Positions 531 through 27,756 of a DNA stretch of 32,904 nt are shown here, piece by piece. A program made the position numbers and the translations under genes. Below the pieces are notes generated by a model that did no database searches, had not been told where the DNA came from, and was given only the letters and a program-made list of their open reading frames with translations. Origin of the DNA: an uncultured SAR86 cluster bacterium (GTDB lineage Bacteria > Pseudomonadota > Gammaproteobacteria > Magnimaribacterales > AG-339-G14); NCBI GenBank assembly GCA_902562135.1, contig CACESE010000012.1:1-32904 (forward strand). Direction: 5' to 3'. The first letter of the stretch is position 1. The number at the start of each line of letters is the position of its first letter.

Positions 531-2015
531 TTAAAGAAAATTTGGTAACTTTTTGTATTTAATACCGGCCATTCTTTTAACAACTTTGATAAGTTGAGCG
601 CAATATCCAATTTCATTGTCATACCAAAGATAAATGATGGCATTCCGACCGTTACATTTTGTAGCTTGTCCATCAATAACCCCAGCATATCTTCCTCCGA
701 CAATGTCTGAAGATACAACCTCGGCAGACTGGGTGAAGTCGATTTGGTCTTTCAATAAACTATGAAACGCAGTCTGTTTTAAAAATTCCACAAATTTTTC
801 TTGATCTGAAGGTTTTTTTAGATAAAGGCTCAATATTGCTAATGAAACATTTGGAGTTGGAACTCTTATCGCATTTGCGCTAAGTTTTCCTTCCAAATTA
901 GGCAATATTTGAGAGACAGCGTTGGCTGCGCCGGTTTCGGTTATTACCATATTAAGTGCTGCTGCCCTACCTCTTCTTGATTTTCTATGATAATTATCTA
1001 TGAGATTTTGATCATTGGTATAAGAATGAATTGTTTCTACATGACCATTATCTATCTCAAATTCATTATCAACAGCACTTAGAACAGGAACTATTGCATT
1101 TGTAGTGCATGAAGCCGCACCAATAATCTCATCTTTATCATCAATTTCATCATGATTCACTCCATAAACTATATTTTTTAATTCTTTTTTTACTGGGGCT
1201 GTAAACAAAACTTTTTTTACTTCCTTATTTTTTAAATGTTTCTCTAAACCTTCTTTTGTAGAAGACATGCCTGTGTTGTCTATGACGATGGCATCAGAAA
1301 TCCCACAACTTGCATAATCAACATTGTCAGGGCTGTCAGCTGAGATAAACTTAACAATATTTCCATTCATTATTAAGGCGTTTTCTTGCTCGTCCACTCT
1401 TATAGTGCCTTTAAACCTTCCATGCACAGAATCCTTTCGCATAAGCTCAGCTCTTTTCAACAAATCTTCCTCAGAACCTGATCTTGTCACAACTGCTTTT
1501 AGGCAGAGAGTCTCCCCAGCTCCTGTATCTTCAAGTAATAACCTTGTAAAAAGTCTTCCAATCCTTCCAAATCCATATAAAACAAGATCTTGAGATTTAT
1601 CTAAAATCGGTTGATGAACTCCAATAACTTCTCTAACTTGTTCTTGGACAAATTCTTCTAAAGCCATTCCTTTTGAATCAAACATAAAACCTGCAGCTAA
1701 AATACCAATATCTAGCTGACAAGGTCCTAGATCGATAGAATCTAGACATTCTAAAACTTTAGAAGTCTCAAACTCACTTAATTCATTTCCTTCTGCTTCT
1801 CTTACTTTTCTATGTAGTTGCATTATCTCAATGACCGATAATGTCATTAGAGGTGATCCATAGAGTAATATGCGTACGTTTTTCCTATGCATCTTGCCAA
1901 TGATAGGTATTGCGGATTCAATTAAAGACTGTCTTTCAATCCAGTTATCTAAATAATTGTCTGGTTTATCTCTTTTTCTTTTGTCTGGGTTAGTATCAGA
2001 CTTGATCTCTGTCAT
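531..2015 (-). CDS. gap: Glyceraldehyde-3-phosphate dehydrogenase, long form with N-terminal extension
   Basis: NAD(P)-dependent GAPDH, which interconverts glyceraldehyde 3-phosphate and 1,3-bisphosphoglycerate in the cytosol. At 494 residues it is about 150 longer than classical GapA. Residues 1-140 form a helical extension, and the GAPDH core starts at about 143 with the nucleotide-binding GFGRIG (148-153). The catalytic Cys is Cys303 in ASCTTNAIVP, and its partner His330 lies in HSYTNDQ. RRGRAAALNMVITETGAANAV (347 onward) and WYDNE near the C-terminus complete the fold. Such long forms next to mfd occur in Pseudomonas-type gammaproteobacteria (recalled, not searched). The ATG is only 3 bases after the stop of the acyl-CoA dehydrogenase small subunit, and nqrA follows, so this looks like a mid-operon gene. 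Cofactor preference and main direction (glycolytic or gluconeogenic) cannot be read here. Confidence 0.95.
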   Translation of the reverse strand: MTEIKSDTNPDKRKRDKPDNYLDNWIERQSLIESAIPIIGKMHRKNVRILLYGSPLMTLSVIEIMQLHRKVREAEGNELSEFETSKVLECLDSIDLGPCQLDIGILAAGFMFDSKGMALEEFVQEQVREVIGVHQPILDKSQDLVLYGFGRIGRLFTRLLLEDTGAGETLCLKAVVTRSGSEEDLLKRAELMRKDSVHGRFKGTIRVDEQENALIMNGNIVKFISADSPDNVDYASCGISDAIVIDNTGMSSTKEGLEKHLKNKEVKKVLFTAPVKKELKNIVYGVNHDEIDDKDEIIGAASCTTNAIVPVLSAVDNEFEIDNGHVETIHSYTNDQNLIDNYHRKSRRGRAAALNMVITETGAANAVSQILPNLEGKLSANAIRVPTPNVSLAILSLYLKKPSDQEKFVEFLKQTAFHSLLKDQIDFTQSAEVVSSDIVGGRYAGVIDGQATKCNGRNAIIYLWYDNEIGYCAQLIKVVKRMAGIKYKKLPNFL

Positions 2016-7366: not shown

Positions 7367-8146
7367 ATGAGACAAATCTTAATCGTTTTAACATTTCTAA
7401 TTTGCCCTTCCCTTTTTTCTGAAAACGAAGATTATATTTATAGAGTTGATCTCATTCTTTTTAAATTTTTACCAAATTTAAATACAAATGAAGAATTCGA
7501 TTTGCCTAATTTTAATTTTGTTGAAGATCTAAAGACACTTTCATCAATGTCATACCCAGAATTTATTGAACCCATTTCGCTTGATTTAAACTATGACTAC
7601 AGCGAATTATTTATTGAAGTTGATTCTCCAGCAATGATAGTTGATGAAAACTTAGAATCAGATTCCGTCGTAAAACCAAAAAATAGAGATTTTTTTGAAC
7701 TAGATATCGGCGAAGAATTTTCACTTTTATCTGAGGTAAAAGCTTTTCAAAAAAGTAGGGATTATCGTGTAATAGGTCATTTTTCTTGGTTTCAACCAGT
7801 TGTTGAAGAGGGATTATCCTCGCCACTTTTAATTGATACAGAAGTTTTTAAAGAAAATAAAATTTTTGGAACTTTAAATATATATAAAAAAAGATTTCTT
7901 CATTCCGATTTCAATTTTTATTTGGCTGAAAAAACTGAAGAATTAGATATTCAAGAATTAAAAGTAAAATTAAATAAAGAAAATCTTGAAGAATATGAAA
8001 TCCTAACTAAGGAAGACTCCATGAAAGTAACTTATCAATTAACACAGTCAAGAAAATTAAAATCTGGAGAACTTCATTATATTGATCATCCAAAATTTGG
8101 AATAATATATAGGTTGGTTAAGGCTGAGAAAATTGAACAGTCTTAG
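7367..8146 (+). CDS. csiV: CsiV-family periplasmic protein (peptidoglycan-binding family, formerly DUF2803)
   Basis: Exported protein of about 259 aa. It has a short N-terminal signal sequence (MRQILIVLTFLICPSLFS) followed by YIYRVDLILFKF, typical of the family start. The family's diagnostic C-terminus is clear: LKSGELHYIDHPKFGIIYRLV. CsiV proteins were described in Vibrio as peptidoglycan-binding and are often found beside mfd in gammaproteobacteria, as here. I start it at the ATG at 7367; a TTG at 7361 directly after the mfd TAA would add two residues and is the alternative. No Shine-Dalgarno is visible, and translation probably couples to mfd. Its last 29 bases overlap the 3' end of the convergent sbcB gene. 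The precise role is unknown; the family call rests on the C-terminal motif and position. Confidence 0.85.
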   Translation: MRQILIVLTFLICPSLFSENEDYIYRVDLILFKFLPNLNTNEEFDLPNFNFVEDLKTLSSMSYPEFIEPISLDLNYDYSELFIEVDSPAMIVDENLESDSVVKPKNRDFFELDIGEEFSLLSEVKAFQKSRDYRVIGHFSWFQPVVEEGLSSPLLIDTEVFKENKIFGTLNIYKKRFLHSDFNFYLAEKTEELDIQELKVKLNKENLEEYEILTKEDSMKVTYQLTQSRKLKSGELHYIDHPKFGIIYRLVKAEKIEQS

Positions 8147-9533
8147 ATTTGTAGTGATCTAACAATTTTTGATAAATTTCTTTTTTTTCGGAGTCCTTCT
8201 CTTCTCCCAATGCCAATTCAACCTTATGAATGGCCTGATCAAGTGTTTCACCAGGTGAGTTCCACGGACCTTTTGTAAATAATCTTGATTTAACCAAATT
8301 ATGATAATTTTCTAACATTTCCTCAGTTGCAAATTCAGGTTTCTCATAGCAAATAATTCTTTGGGCTAATTCTCTATATCTCTCATCTTCAAAACCATCC
8401 ACTAGTTTTACTTTTTCATCCCAAGTACTAATCTCAAATCTTTCCATCCATAACTTATCAGCAGGAGAACTAAATCCATCATAAATTTTTTGTTCTACTA
8501 TATTTTTTTCAGCCCAAGTTTTATCATCATCCTCTAGAATTTGAGATAATTTTTGTTTAAATTCTTCATTTTCTTTTATCGACTTTGCGCGAGCAGCTAA
8601 AACTTCAATAGACTCATCTAAAAAACTTTCTGCATTTTTAATTAAGTTTACGTTTATTATGGGTTGAGTTTTATTTATAGCAATTTTTTTAAATGCGCCC
8701 GATCTTCCAATTTGCCCTTTTAACTCTGAATAAGACATTTCAAAAAGATCTTTAGGATCAAAATATAAATCTACTAAAAGCACTTCATTAGTTTTTTTTG
8801 AATTTTGAGCAACAGGAAATACAGGGTAGCTAAAAGGCTGTCCTTTAAATATCTCCGCTAGCATTGAAAATGGCTGCTCATTTAATGATGCTATAAGATC
8901 TTTCTTTTTTGAGGTTCTTATTGCTGATTCCCAAAGTTCAGGTATCTCTTTGGTTATTAACCTAACTAAATTAATCATCAGATAAGAATCTACAACCGCG
9001 TCATGAGCGTTCAATGATGAAATTCCATTCGCTTCAGCAACCATTTCCAATTTGTATCTAAGATTTCCATCATCATCCATGGGTATTTTTATTTTATCCG
9101 AGTAAAAGTTTGCAACTAGGAAAATAATTATCATTAAATCAATTCTCGAAGAACCGTTTGCATTTGTTGTTAAATACGGATCAATTAAATTCCAATAAAA
9201 TTGTCTTCGAAATAATTCTTCGTCAAATTTCATTCCGTTATAAGTGACATGGACTAACTCTTTAGTTTTTCCCCAGCTTAACCATTTATTTTTTAAAAAA
9301 TGCATCATGTCGTAGTGAGACATTCCATCTTCTAAATTATTGGTCTGTTTATGTGTTTCATAAGCGCCTTTGGTTGGAACCACCCAAGGAAGAACTTTCG
9401 AACTTAAATTTAATTCTTCTTCAACATTAAAGTCTTCGTCTGTGAGAACAGACCCAATCTGAATGATTTGAGAAAACCATGTATTGAGACCTGTTGTTTC
9501 GGTATCGTTAAAAACGAAAGATTTTTTTGACAT
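8118..9533 (-). CDS. sbcB: Exodeoxyribonuclease I
   Basis: Single-strand-specific 3'-5' exonuclease (471 aa, close to the 475 of E. coli ExoI) acting in recombination and mismatch repair. The N-terminal DnaQ-like DEDDh fold is complete. Exo I is FNDTETTG (Asp10 and Glu12). The VTYNGMKFDEELFRRQFYWNLIDPY block matches the ExoI-specific GYNNVRFDDE region. SSRIDLM provides the central Asp, and NAHDAVVDSYL provides the His and final Asp. The C-terminal ExoI domains are recognisable from QKIYDGFSSPADKLWMERFE. The gene lies 46 bases downstream of nfuA on the same strand. Its short leader holds a small inverted repeat, GAAGTA (9535-9540) with TACTTC (9546-9551). It converges on csiV with a 29-base coding overlap. 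Confidence 0.95.
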   Translation of the reverse strand: MSKKSFVFNDTETTGLNTWFSQIIQIGSVLTDEDFNVEEELNLSSKVLPWVVPTKGAYETHKQTNNLEDGMSHYDMMHFLKNKWLSWGKTKELVHVTYNGMKFDEELFRRQFYWNLIDPYLTTNANGSSRIDLMIIIFLVANFYSDKIKIPMDDDGNLRYKLEMVAEANGISSLNAHDAVVDSYLMINLVRLITKEIPELWESAIRTSKKKDLIASLNEQPFSMLAEIFKGQPFSYPVFPVAQNSKKTNEVLLVDLYFDPKDLFEMSYSELKGQIGRSGAFKKIAINKTQPIINVNLIKNAESFLDESIEVLAARAKSIKENEEFKQKLSQILEDDDKTWAEKNIVEQKIYDGFSSPADKLWMERFEISTWDEKVKLVDGFEDERYRELAQRIICYEKPEFATEEMLENYHNLVKSRLFTKGPWNSPGETLDQAIHKVELALGEEKDSEKKEIYQKLLDHYKSKTVQFSQP

Positions 9534-9579: not shown

Positions 9580-10164
9580 TTACTTGTAGTAAGCGTTTTC
9601 AGTTTGACTGTGATCGGTTGAATCAATTATCTCAGTCAATTCTGGAATATTATTTCTTAAAGTTTTTTCAACACCATCTCTAAGAGTTAAGTCAACCATT
9701 CCACAGCCTTGACACCCACCGCCAAATCTAAGAACAGCTTTAGTACTCTCTAAAACTTCGACCAAATGCACCTCACCGCCGTGAGAAGCAAGCGAAGGAT
9801 TTATCTCACTGTATAGAAAATAATTTATTTTATCTTCAATGGTGCTGTTTTCATTTAAATTTGGCATTTTTGCATTAGGAGCTCTGATAGTTAGCTGACC
9901 TCCAAATTTATCGGGATGATAATCAACTTTTAAGTCTTCTAAAAAAGGAAGACTTAAATTTTCCAAAAACACGTTAATTTTATCCATTTTGAATAAAACA
10001 TCATCTGCCTCCTCTTCTCCATCCTTACAATAAACGATGCAAGTTTCGGCTTTAGGAGTTCCTGGATCAGAAACGAATATTTTTATATTTGTAGGCTCCT
10101 CTTGCTTTGACAGCAAGTCAAACAGATAATCCTGAGCTGAATCAGTGATATTTAAACTTTCCAT
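9580..10164 (-). CDS. nfuA: Fe-S biogenesis protein NfuA
   Basis: Iron-sulfur carrier that delivers [4Fe-4S] clusters to apo-proteins, especially under oxidative or iron stress. At 194 aa it has the two-domain NfuA layout: a degenerate A-type (IscA-like) N-terminal domain without its cysteine triad (about 1-100), then an Nfu domain. The cluster-binding CxxC is Cys151 and Cys154 in GGGCQGCGMVDLTLRDG, and the C-terminus keeps the family's PELTEIIDSTDHS block. It begins 8 bases after the etfA stop and precedes sbcB. The link to etfBA makes sense because the nearby ETF-quinone oxidoreductase needs a [4Fe-4S] cluster, but that functional link is inference. Confidence 0.96.
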   Translation of the reverse strand: MESLNITDSAQDYLFDLLSKQEEPTNIKIFVSDPGTPKAETCIVYCKDGEEEADDVLFKMDKINVFLENLSLPFLEDLKVDYHPDKFGGQLTIRAPNAKMPNLNENSTIEDKINYFLYSEINPSLASHGGEVHLVEVLESTKAVLRFGGGCQGCGMVDLTLRDGVEKTLRNNIPELTEIIDSTDHSQTENAYYK

Positions 10165-24580: not shown

Positions 24581-25809
24581 TAAATCTTCTCCACTATAAA
24601 ATATCTTTTCTGATTTAAAAGTATAAATATTATTAATAAGATTGCTAGAGTAGAAAGTAAAATGTAAGGAATCTCAGGAGAGATTATGTAAAGAGGCATT
24701 ATAACTACTGGTACTAAAATATGTCCTATAGGAAACACCATGTTTAAAAGTCCGTTCGCAGTTCCCTGTTCTGACTTAGAAACAGATAAAGAAAGCATTG
24801 TCACATTTCCTGCTCTTGCCAAACCCATACCAAGACCTTTTAACATTAAACCCAGATATAACCCAGGGATTGAAGATGCTTGAGAAAGAAGAAAGAAACC
24901 TAAAAATACAATCAATAAACCCCATTTGATCAAGCTTAACGGATTAATTCTGTAATTTTGAACAATTACAAGTTGAGAAAACATTGAAGCTAATGCAACA
25001 ATTGAAAATCCAACTGCCACGGTTGAATAGACTTCGGATTGATTGGTGAGAATAACGTCTTTTACAAATATAGAACTAGTCAAAACCAAACCAGCATTTG
25101 AAAGCCCCATGAAAGAGGCAACCACTAATGATGGCCAGACTCTTGAATCAAACATGCTTATTTTTTTTTGCGACTCAATTTTTTCTTCATGGAATTGTTG
25201 ATCTGAGACTCCCATTTGAAAAAAATTATAGAAGCCTAATGAAATTCCTAATAAAGCAATAAATAAAAAAGGTATAAAAAGATTATTATTAAAAACAGAT
25301 AATAAAACTCCTATTAATATTGGACCTGCTACAACACCCATTTGCCATCCTGCATCAAATCGAGCGAAACCTGCTGCTCTAGTTTCTGGAGAGGTTAAAT
25401 CTGCAATTCTTCCTCCAGCTGCTGGCCTTACAGCACTGCCTAATAAGCCATTGATCAATCTTGTAATAATCAGTAAAGGAAGAATCAGAGCAAAAGGAAT
25501 CAAATTTAAAGTCGCTGCAGAAATTATTGCAGCAAATAGAATCATAGAAATTGAAAATCCAAAAATTCCTAAAAGGAAAATCCATTTTCTTCCAAATTTA
25601 TCACTCAAGCTTCCCCAAAAAGGACTAAAAAACATCCATGCGAGTGCTGAAATTGAAAATATTATTCCAACTTCAAATTCATTAAACCCTAGCGATCTTA
25701 CTTCAGCTGGAATCAAAATAAATATTGTTGATTGACCGGCTCCAATACAGGCGATTGCAGCGGCCAAGTACCAGATCGATTTATCGGGCTTTTCAACAAC
25801 GTTAGTCAT
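24580..25809 (-). CDS. MFS transporter
   Basis: Integral membrane transporter of the major facilitator superfamily (409 aa from the ATG at 25809). About twelve hydrophobic helices are visible. The loop 2-3 signature is GSLSDKFGRKWIFLLG, and an inter-domain repeat near LNGLLGSAVRPAAGGRIADLTSPETRAAGFARFDAGWQ resembles the TetA-like drug:H+ antiporter subgroup. A TTG at 25815 would add two residues; the ATG is preferred. It overlaps the preceding unknown gene by 8 bases and the following SDR gene by one. The substrate is unknown: export of a metabolite or toxic compound is possible, uptake cannot be excluded. Confidence 0.9.
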   Translation of the reverse strand: MTNVVEKPDKSIWYLAAAIACIGAGQSTIFILIPAEVRSLGFNEFEVGIIFSISALAWMFFSPFWGSLSDKFGRKWIFLLGIFGFSISMILFAAIISAATLNLIPFALILPLLIITRLINGLLGSAVRPAAGGRIADLTSPETRAAGFARFDAGWQMGVVAGPILIGVLLSVFNNNLFIPFLFIALLGISLGFYNFFQMGVSDQQFHEEKIESQKKISMFDSRVWPSLVVASFMGLSNAGLVLTSSIFVKDVILTNQSEVYSTVAVGFSIVALASMFSQLVIVQNYRINPLSLIKWGLLIVFLGFFLLSQASSIPGLYLGLMLKGLGMGLARAGNVTMLSLSVSKSEQGTANGLLNMVFPIGHILVPVVIMPLYIISPEIPYILLSTLAILLIIFILLNQKRYFIVEKI

Positions 25810-26365
25810 AAGCAAGCATCAAGATGAATAATTCATTTACAGAAGGATTAAATATAAGAAATTCATGAAATTCATTTAACGCATGTGACCATTCATGATC
25901 AAACTCGTATTTTTCTGAAGTTTTTCTAATTTTATTTTGTTTTAAAAAAAAGGTCTTTGAATCTTCTTGAATTATTAAGTTTAAAAAAGATTCTAGTCTT
26001 TTCATTATGTCAGGTGAAATTTTAGGAGTTTGTGGTCTCTCTGAGATTACGATTTCAATCACAAAAGATAAAAAATCAGCTGCATCTATTATTACGAATG
26101 AATTACTATTTAATTTTTTTATAGAAAAAGGTCCATGAAAACCTTTTGCTCTAGCAAACATAAAATCTGTTAGTTGGAAGTTAGCAAATTCTTCTTTGAA
26201 ATAACTATCAATCAAAAAATCATAATTATGTTCATCAAAAACACCTGAATATTTTGATCTCACGATAAGTGCTTGTCCGTGATCATGAAGCCTAAGAAAT
26301 TCCATTCCCTCTAAGGAATAACTATTTTTAGGCGGGTACTTTAAGATTTCTTTTTTATCATCCAT
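25802..26365 (-). CDS. Unknown protein, 187 aa
   Basis: Not recognised. A soluble protein of 187 aa with no signal peptide or clear membrane helix. The N-terminal half is mixed (EGMEFLRLHDHGQALIVRS, then FMFARAKGFHGPFSIKKL and FVIIDAADFLSFVIEIVI). The C-terminal half looks helical and ends LNEFHEFLIFNPSVNELFILML. It is clearly a real gene: it overlaps the trpS stop by 8 bases upstream and the MFS start by 8 bases downstream, in a strictly co-directional block. It has no cysteine and no obvious catalytic motif. Translation is likely coupled to both neighbours. Confidence 0.8.
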   Translation of the reverse strand: MDDKKEILKYPPKNSYSLEGMEFLRLHDHGQALIVRSKYSGVFDEHNYDFLIDSYFKEEFANFQLTDFMFARAKGFHGPFSIKKLNSNSFVIIDAADFLSFVIEIVISERPQTPKISPDIMKRLESFLNLIIQEDSKTFFLKQNKIRKTSEKYEFDHEWSHALNEFHEFLIFNPSVNELFILMLAYD

Positions 26366-27353
26366 GTAAAGGTTTGATCCCTACTTTCTCTCTTACTTCT
26401 TTGATTTTTATTTCTGCTTGGATAATTGCTTTCTTTTCACCTTCAATAAGAATCTCTTCTACTGATTCAGGGCTATTCATAAGTTCATCATATTTTTGCC
26501 TCAAAGGACTCAATTCTTGATTAATTATTTCAAATAGCATTTTTTTTAAATCGCCCCATCCCATGCCTTCTTTAAATAATCTTTTTATGTCCTTAAGTTT
26601 GCTATCTTTTGTGAATGCTTTGAAATATTCAAACAAAATTGAACTTTTAGTATCTTTTTCTTCGCCGGGCAGTAAAGAATCTGTAACTATTTGATTTATT
26701 AGTTTTCGTAATTCATTTTCAGATGAAAAAAGTTTTATGAAATTGTTATAAGATTTACTCATCTTTCTTCCATCTAATCCAGAAAGAAGTGGAGTGTTTT
26801 CAGAAATAATTGGCTCAGGTAAAGTAAAAGTATTCCCATAAGTGTTATTGAATCTTCCTGCAATATCTCTAGTCATTTCGATATGTTGTTTTTGATCGCT
26901 ACCTACTGGCACGAAATCAGCATCAAATAATAAAATGTCAGCTGACATTAGTATTGGGTAATTAAATAACCCTGCATTTATTCCTTTATCTGGATCTGTA
27001 TTTTCGTTTAAATCTACAGCAGCCTTGTAAGCATGCGCTCGGTTCAGCAAACCCTTTGGTGTTACGGCATTTAATATCCAACTCAATTCTAAAATTTGTG
27101 GAATACTTGACTGTCTATAAAAATTAACTTTTTTAGTATCTATTCCACAAGCTATCCAGGCTGCAGCTATCTCTAAAGATGACTTATAAGTAAGCTCAGG
27201 ATCCTGATTTTTTATCAAGGAATGATAATCGGCAAGAAACAGGAAATTATTTTTAAAATTTTTTGATTGTTCAATGGATGGCTTAATAGCACCGATATAA
27301 TTTCCAATATGAGGAGTACCGCTTGTAGTAATACCTGTTAAAAGAATAGACAT
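26358..27353 (-). CDS. trpS: Tryptophanyl-tRNA synthetase
   Basis: Class I aminoacyl-tRNA synthetase charging tRNA-Trp, 331 aa, normal for bacteria. The HIGH-type motif is TSGTPHIGNYIG (11-22), the tryptophan and ATP site includes FLADYHSLIK and DILLFDADFVPVGSDQKQHIE, and the KMSKS loop is GRKMSKSYNN. No Shine-Dalgarno precedes the ATG. A terminator-like hairpin and its U-run end only 12 bases upstream. A TATACT (27365-27360) sits 6 bases before the ATG, the position expected for a leaderless transcript. First gene of the fourteen-gene minus-strand run. Confidence 0.97.
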   Translation of the reverse strand: MSILLTGITTSGTPHIGNYIGAIKPSIEQSKNFKNNFLFLADYHSLIKNQDPELTYKSSLEIAAAWIACGIDTKKVNFYRQSSIPQILELSWILNAVTPKGLLNRAHAYKAAVDLNENTDPDKGINAGLFNYPILMSADILLFDADFVPVGSDQKQHIEMTRDIAGRFNNTYGNTFTLPEPIISENTPLLSGLDGRKMSKSYNNFIKLFSSENELRKLINQIVTDSLLPGEEKDTKSSILFEYFKAFTKDSKLKDIKRLFKEGMGWGDLKKMLFEIINQELSPLRQKYDELMNSPESVEEILIEGEKKAIIQAEIKIKEVREKVGIKPLHG

Positions 27354-27364
27354 ATGATAAGTAT

Positions 27365-27391
27365 AAAAAAAAACACCACTTGAGTGGTGTT
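27365..27391 (-). terminator. Rho-independent terminator-like hairpin just upstream of trpS
   Basis: Perfect 8-bp stem AACACCAC (27372-27379) with GTGGTGTT (27384-27391) around a 4-base loop. On the minus strand it is followed by a run of seven further U residues (27371-27365). This is a strong intrinsic terminator for transcripts coming from higher coordinates. On the plus strand the stem is followed by CTTTTT, so it may also work weakly that way. Its end is 12 bases from the trpS ATG, so it ends a small RNA or attenuates transcription into trpS. Confidence 0.85.
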
Positions 27392-27550
27392 CTTTTTAGC
27401 GAAGTTGAAGGGGCCTAGCGGGCTTCCTAGTGCTGGACTTTACCCCGTGTCCTGCATGTGGTGAAATTTCTTTCAGCTTTTCACCCTTCTCCTTCTTTCT
27501 ACTGTCTTCTTTTTTAGCGTCTCGAGTTGTTAAAACGTCTCTCAGTAGAT
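27365..27550 (-). ncRNA. Candidate structured small RNA or trpS leader RNA, family not recognised
   Basis: About 186 nt lie between a promoter-like pair (27557-27584) and the terminator at 27365-27391. The stretch is visibly more GC-rich in its 3' half than the surrounding DNA, as expected for structured RNA in an AT-rich genome. Possible helices are CTACTG (27548-27543) with CAGTAG (27504-27499), GGTGAAA with TTTCACC (27485-27479 with 27466-27460), and GGAC with GTCC (27452-27449 with 27438-27435). GAAGGG (27489-27484) with CCCTTC (27412-27407) is a possible long-range closing helix; it competes for two bases with the second hairpin. No ORF with Trp codons is present, so it is not a classical Trp leader peptide. 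I could not match it to 4.5S, 6S, tmRNA, RNase P, T-box or cobalamin elements. It is either an independent sRNA or a leader controlling trpS. Confidence 0.55.
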
Positions 27551-27556
27551 AAATAT

Positions 27557-27584
27557 ATATTAGCTAATTTATTTTCTTATGCAA
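27557..27584 (-). promoter_or_regulatory. Promoter for the candidate RNA upstream of trpS
   Basis: On the minus strand, TTGCAT (27584-27579) and TAATAT (27562-27557) are separated by 16 bases and resemble sigma-70 -35 and -10 elements. They predict a transcription start near 27550, just before the first helix of the candidate RNA. The surrounding AT-richness makes chance matches easy, so the support comes mainly from the good fit with the RNA and terminator downstream. Confidence 0.5.
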
Positions 27585-27664
27585 TAGGCAAAATACACTT
27601 TTTTAGATTAAGTTTTCATAAAAAAATTTTTTTTGATTTAAAAAAAGTATTAAAAATTTTTTTT

Positions 27665-27756
27665 TGGCGGAGGGGGTGGGATTCGAACCCACGAAGCCAT
27701 TTCTGACTTGCCGGTTTTCAAGACCGGTGCATTCAACCAAGCTCTGCCACCCCTCC
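27665..27756 (-). tRNA. tRNA-Ser (anticodon UGA)
   Basis: A 92-base class II tRNA with encoded CCA. The 5' end GGAGGGG (27756-27750) pairs with CCCCTCC (27675-27669), followed by the discriminator G and CCA (27667-27665). The anticodon stem-loop CACCGGTCTTGAAAACCGG closely matches the E. coli tRNA-Ser(UGA) anticodon arm and reads UCA codons. The T arm is GTGGGTTCGAATCCCAC, and a long variable arm lies between. It is transcribed toward the candidate RNA and trpS; 80 bases of AT-rich DNA without a clear terminator separate it from the promoter at 27584. Confidence 0.97.

Follow-up and report, generated by a model that had tools for sequence, protein, structure and literature searches.

An IMES-5 RNA next to trpS in a SAR86 bacterium: a probable stand-alone RNA, akin to IMES-1 and a candidate for self-association through palindromic loops

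Introduction

SAR86 bacteria are common in the ocean. The stretch of DNA analysed here (the window; 32,904 nucleotides, contig CACESE010000012.1 of assembly GCA_902562135.1) comes from an uncultured member of this cluster. A first-pass annotation, made from the letters of the window only, had pointed out a structured RNA with a promoter and terminator of its own, placed directly upstream of trpS and matched to no known RNA family. It was proposed to be either a leader attenuating trpS or a separate small RNA followed by a leaderless trpS. The locus raises the question of what this RNA is, and whether it belongs to the gene behind it or stands by itself.

Identity and distribution of the RNA

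The minus-strand stretch 27400-27547 matched the Rfam family IMES-5 (RF02995) in full length (model positions 1-150) with 128.1 bits and an E-value of 3e-25, the gathering cut-off being 96.1 bits. The RNA is thus not unrecognised, as had been supposed, but an ordinary member of the catalogued marine IMES-5 family of SAR86 bacteria, with the same helices, conserved motifs and kind of host as the Rfam family and no difference in the RNA itself. The housekeeping 6S RNA (RF00013) gave no match at the locus. A literature search, with the original IMES reports outside its reach, found nothing on IMES-5, IMES-1 or IMES-2 as RNA motifs. What is newly added to IMES-5 below is a kissing interaction between hairpins P4 and P5, a palindromic loop L1, and the layout of promoter, terminator and leaderless trpS; both the palindromes and the kiss may have been noted before.

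The window genome (G000; 0.99 Mb, 76% complete) was compared with 120 relatives, and four SAR86 families are distinguished: its own (f1), a sister family (f2) and two others (f3 and f4). IMES-5 was found above the cut-off in 46 of the 121 genomes, always as one copy, 27 of them in f1 and 19 in f2. Thirteen f1 genomes without IMES-5 were also without a true trpS gene, giving weak and distant matches only, which indicates that these assemblies lack the locus. When 84,980 named species genomes were scanned with an IMES-5 pattern, all 34 matches fell in the SAR86 cluster or in Gammaproteobacteria metagenome-assembled genomes without a finer name, and viral contigs gave no match to the pattern.

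Arrangement of the locus and the relation to trpS

The promoter-like pair, the structured RNA and the perfect 8-bp terminator with its U-run were present as first described, and promoter, RNA and terminator were kept at all 27 f1 loci. The promoter of the window copy (27557-27584, minus strand) has a -35-like TTGCAT (27584-27579), a 16-nt spacer and a -10-like TAATAT (27562-27557); TTGNNN-N16/17-TANNAT lies directly upstream of IMES-5 in every f1 copy. The terminator (27365-27391, minus strand) is a hairpin, AACACCAC-TCAA-GTGGTGTT, followed by the U-run, and an equivalent hairpin and T-run follow IMES-5 in 27 of 27 f1 copies. A strict consensus promoter scan of the locus did not list the IMES-5 promoter, and the consensus scanner saw the terminator hairpin on the plus strand only, so the case for both elements rests on their conservation. 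With promoter and terminator, the predicted transcript would be about 184 nt long. A 203-nt stretch of the locus folds at -56.2 kcal/mol, against a mean of -39.2 for shuffled sequences (z -4.2; 0 of 200 shuffles). Farther upstream lies a tRNA-Ser(UGA) gene (27665-27756, minus strand; Rfam tRNA at 27668-27756, also called by ARAGORN). Between the two, f1 genomes have a conserved TCT(T)AAAA ... CTATTG stretch (window 27585-27625, minus strand) directly upstream of the -35 box, which could serve as an UP element or as the binding site of a regulator.

The gene downstream, trpS for tryptophanyl-tRNA synthetase (26358-27353, minus strand; PF00579, E 2.4e-59), has its ATG at 27353 and is regarded here as a neighbour of the RNA and not as its target. 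Directly 3' of it, in a position kept throughout f1, is a gene for a 187-aa protein (25802-26365, minus strand) with no Pfam match. All 27 f1 copies show the same order: sigma-70-like promoter, IMES-5, terminator, TATACT, six bases (seven in one copy) and the trpS ATG. The bases between TATACT and the ATG vary among the copies while TATACT is constant; in the window it occupies 27360-27365 (minus strand) and overlaps the terminator by one base, the T that ends the latter and begins the box. A TATACT standing 6-7 nt before the ATG fits a -10 box with the transcript starting at or beside the ATG, as in a leaderless mRNA. Most likely, trpS is transcribed from its own leaderless start at this box, and we infer a conserved, compact hand-over from the terminator to the leaderless trpS promoter. 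A TATAAT-like box also stands 4-9 nt before the ATG of two other window genes (8118-9533 and 9580-10164, both minus strand), and leaderless or near-leaderless starts may be common in this genome.

The two readings first proposed for the RNA fared differently. If IMES-5 were a cis-acting leader attenuating trpS, the terminator would be the control point and the RNA would sense, for example, charged tRNA or tryptophan. IMES-5 indeed adjoins trpS on the same strand at all 27 assembled f1 loci, with only 12 nt from terminator to ATG. In f2, however, a convergent gene of opposite orientation, encoding a LigT/ThpR-type 2'-5' RNA ligase, separates IMES-5 from the same-strand trpS; at one such locus (L052) IMES-5 lies at 2098-1949 (minus), the ligase gene at 1360-1944 (plus) and trpS at 1315-305 (minus). 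Co-transcription with trpS is therefore not conserved, and because of this intervening gene IMES-5 is taken as a stand-alone RNA and not as a trpS leader. The related IMES-1 RNA (see below) adjoins still other genes, namely those for an ETF-QO-like protein and a DUF1285 protein in f2, pyruvate kinase in f3 and pheA in f4. Judged from these arrangements, the constant element is the RNA and not its downstream gene. The TATACT box at its fixed distance would also give trpS a start of its own, and the predicted fold of the window stretch offers no alternative antiterminator pairing. Like trp attenuators and T-box leaders, IMES-5 precedes a tryptophan-related gene and has a terminator, but it has no Trp-codon leader peptide, the Rfam scan gave no T-box match at the locus even at E up to 10, in agreement with the first-pass annotation, and in the relatives the RNA is unlinked to trpS transcription. 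We consider attenuation of trpS very improbable; the other proposal, a separate RNA followed by a leaderless trpS, agrees with all 27 f1 loci.

Secondary structure

Conservation and covariation in relatives, proposed at the outset as a check on the RNA, were assessed on an alignment of 45 distinct IMES-5 sequences, with shuffling and sliding as controls. The structure was paired in 86.3% of cells, compared with 72.5% after shuffling and 35-49% after sliding, and 326 cells carried two-sided changes, compared with 117 in shuffled and at best 105 in slid alignments. In total, 29 pairs had changed on both sides, and none of 500 shuffles reached the observed values.

According to this analysis, IMES-5 folds into a hairpin P1, a closing helix P2 and three hairpins within P2. 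P1 (27500-27547, minus strand) has two helices, an internal loop and a 10-nt apical loop, AACUCGAGAC; 11 of its 13 pairs show changes on both sides. P2 (GAAG..GAAGGG with CCCUUC..CUUC) is almost invariant in sequence, which suggests that a partner, perhaps a protein, recognises this sequence. Of the hairpins inside P2, two are joined by a kiss of their loops, GGGU of P4 (27442-27445, minus strand) pairing with GCCC of P5 (27420-27423, minus strand; ACCC in most relatives). These loops are paired in 98.9% of cells, and two of their pairs show two-sided changes, from G-C to A-U and from G-C to U-A. The kiss is absent from the structure line of IMES-5 in Rfam. At the corresponding places IMES-1 reads GAGA and UCUC.

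A strongly conserved RNA with a single copy in each matching genome could be a substitute for a standard housekeeping RNA, 6S or tmRNA. This is hardly credible for SAR86, since a separate 6S RNA was found in 113 of the 121 genomes, including the window genome (G000:C1:97967-98140), and a separate tmRNA in 14 of 14; the comparison covered these two RNAs.

Probable kinship with IMES-1

The IMES-1 model (RF02034; cut-off 81 bits) matched the window copy of IMES-5 from end to end with 32.2 bits (E 2.3e-5), far ahead of other families, and matched IMES-5 of other f1 genomes with E-values down to 2.5e-6. Lying below the IMES-1 cut-off, the window copy is a relative and not a member of that family. 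Rfam gives no clan for either RNA. The two have the same order of parts: P1 with a palindromic 10-nt loop, GGGUGAAA, the P3 hairpin, CCAC(C), the kissing P4 and P5, and a terminator of their own. They differ in genomic neighbours and in P3, which in IMES-1 is longer and carries a second palindromic loop (L2), whereas in IMES-5 it often has a GAAA-type loop, as in the window copy. By sequence and arrangement, IMES-1 and IMES-5 look homologous.

In f2, f3 and f4 together, 65 genomes carried IMES-1 above the cut-off, with at most two good copies in each; a doubtful match of 26 bits (G073:C5) was excluded. Of 274 genomes drawn from the class, only one, a SAR86 genome, had IMES-1 above the cut-off. 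In viral contigs a short IMES-1 motif gave six matches; none had an Rfam match, and these were taken as chance. Several f3 genomes have two IMES-1 copies, some in tandem about 315 bp apart (L068/L042, at G041:C2:70485-70676 and 70800-70991; L079; L072/L076; L070/L080). In many f2 genomes the two RNAs are encoded on opposite strands with about 14 kb between them (in G043:C1, at 826103-826289 plus and 839948-840097 minus), suggesting an old local duplication. In a SerS tree, f1 and f2 grouped together with support of 56/77 and f3 and f4 with 87/95, neither grouping being firm. On a simple reading, IMES-1 would have given rise to IMES-5 ahead of the split between f1 and f2 and would later have been lost from f1.

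Palindromic loops and possible self-association

The P1 loop of the window copy reads AA-CUCGAG-AC, and its central hexamer (L1; 27521-27526, minus strand) is self-complementary. The same hexamer is found in IMES-5 and IMES-1 of f1 and f2, while IMES-1 of f3 and f4 has CUGCAG. L1 is self-complementary in 44 of 45 IMES-5 and 49 of 49 aligned IMES-1 sequences, the lone exception being CUAGAG in the IMES-5 of one genome (G064); the positional background is about 2% for Watson-Crick pairing and 3-4% if G.U is allowed. In either alignment, L1 is the sole site where nearly all rows are self-complementary. The swap between CUCGAG and CUGCAG is, however, a single change between clades on the IMES-1 tree, and the IMES-5 palindrome hardly varies, so that L1 alone is modest evidence for self-pairing; its conservation could also be explained by the binding of a protein or a target RNA.

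Most of the evidence for a dimer comes from the second loop of IMES-1, which IMES-5 lacks. L2 is self-complementary in 71 of 71 copies, with ten different hexamers: seven Watson-Crick forms (GUCGAC, GUAUAC, GUUAAC, GCUAGC, GGUACC, GCAUGC and GCCGGC) and three with G.U wobbles (GUCGAU, GUCGGC and GUUGAC). The hexamer changed at least 16 times on a tree built without the L2 hairpin. When the 3' halves were re-dealt among copies, a mean of 25 and a maximum of 36 of the 71 were self-complementary (2000 trials, in which relatedness is ignored). With the register in f3 set by the flanking sequence, 33 of 33 copies fitted, and shuffles within f3 reached 32 because most f3 copies share GUCGAC; the L2 evidence therefore draws its force from the comparison between families. 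For f2 and f4, the palindrome itself had guided the choice of register; when the folded loops of these two families were examined blind, 34 of 38 contained a strict palindrome, with 0.8 expected. Two IMES-1 copies within one genome can differ slightly in L2 (GUUGAC and GUCGAC in G110).

A hexamer cannot pair with itself within one short loop for steric reasons, so pairs of this kind must form between molecules. Predicted duplex energies of the hexamers with their flanks range from -5 to -11 kcal/mol (-9.5 for CUCGAG), compared with -13.9 for the HIV-type GCGCGC in the same calculation. An apical loop kept self-complementary through change, as expected of a kissing-loop homodimeric RNA, was thus found in L1 and in L2 of IMES-1, and by analogy with known RNAs the palindromes changing in step appear to be the signature of such homodimers. 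Most likely, two IMES-5 molecules would join through their P1 loops, CUCGAG with CUCGAG, and such a dimer may form in the cell. IMES-1, having a second palindromic loop, could form chains or rings, and in f2, where both RNAs occur, the common CUCGAG loop would let them join each other.

The P1 loop, AACUCGAGAC, is nearly invariant, exposed and of seed-like length, and IMES-5 could for these reasons be a small RNA that base-pairs in trans with target mRNAs, in which case the palindrome would be incidental. A seed for a target would not require L1 to remain self-complementary through the change between CUCGAG and CUGCAG, nor L2 of IMES-1 to stay self-complementary while switching between ten hexamers, some of them G.U intermediates. 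Hfq (PF17209) was found in 0 of 14 SAR86 genomes of the four families, with positive controls, and these streamlined bacteria may lack it altogether. Pairing with mRNAs is therefore an unlikely role. Pairing of L1 with the T-loop of tRNA had been considered and was dropped, since the CUGCAG of f3 and f4 would not fit.

Taken together, we think it likely, though by no means certain, that IMES-1 and IMES-5 form one RNA superfamily, which within the genomes searched is restricted to SAR86 and which self-assembles into homodimers in the case of IMES-5 and into chains or rings in the case of IMES-1.

Possible function

Our best explanation, held with somewhat more confidence, is that IMES-5 is a stand-alone SAR86 RNA of about 184 nt that dimerizes via L1 and is homologous to IMES-1, with trpS merely the next gene. 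It would probably be an abundant small RNA whose transcription starts at a promoter and stops at a terminator of its own, and the near-invariant core of P2 and the junction may bind a protein. That it works as a dimeric protein-binding scaffold or sponge is offered as a tentative guess.

One protein that could be bound is CsrA, whose core motif is GGA; IMES-5 would then titrate CsrA, working like CsrB or RsmZ. CsrA was found in 59 of 70 genomes of f1 and f2, the families with IMES-5 (in the window genome at G000:C3:26888-27034), and in 0 of 51 genomes of f3 and f4, which have IMES-1 only, and the lack of Hfq in the 14 genomes would agree with such a role. The co-occurrence may nevertheless reflect one phylogenetic split, and GGA was not repeated above expectation as in RNAs of the CsrB/RsmZ type, with 3.2 per RNA versus 4.3 in shuffles for f1 and 4.1 versus 4.5 for f2. 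We therefore doubt that IMES-5 is a CsrA-titrating RNA.

Whatever they bind, if the IMES RNAs self-assemble, we know of no natural bacterial RNA as small for which sequence evolution supports such behaviour. RNA-only quaternary structure would then extend beyond very large RNAs, and an RNA of 150-190 nt would be an easy system in which to study it.

Comparison with known systems

Two families listed separately in Rfam, IMES-1 and IMES-5, look like one, with covarying palindromes as in OLE and GOLLD. For those RNAs, Kretsch and others reasoned likewise from covarying palindromes to dimers, and cryo-EM shows the contacts of OLE L9.3 and GOLLD L21a (PMC12286853). The palindromes switch from GC to CG in GOLLD L21a and from GGCC to GAUC or AGCU in OLE L9.3 (PMC12286853). 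The IMES RNAs resemble the homo-oligomeric OLE, GOLLD and ROOL in their putative symmetric kissing loops, the palindromes of which switch together (PMC12286853), but they are not homologous to them as far as tested, are only 150-190 nt long and have one or two candidate contacts, predicted from sequence.

The best studied six-base palindrome flanked by purines is the dimerization initiation site of HIV-1 (PMC7357161). Like the AA-CUCGAG-AC of IMES-5, it is a six-nt palindrome in a purine-flanked apical loop (PMC7357161). It belongs to an unrelated genomic RNA, so that the likeness is one of working only, the IMES dimer being predicted.
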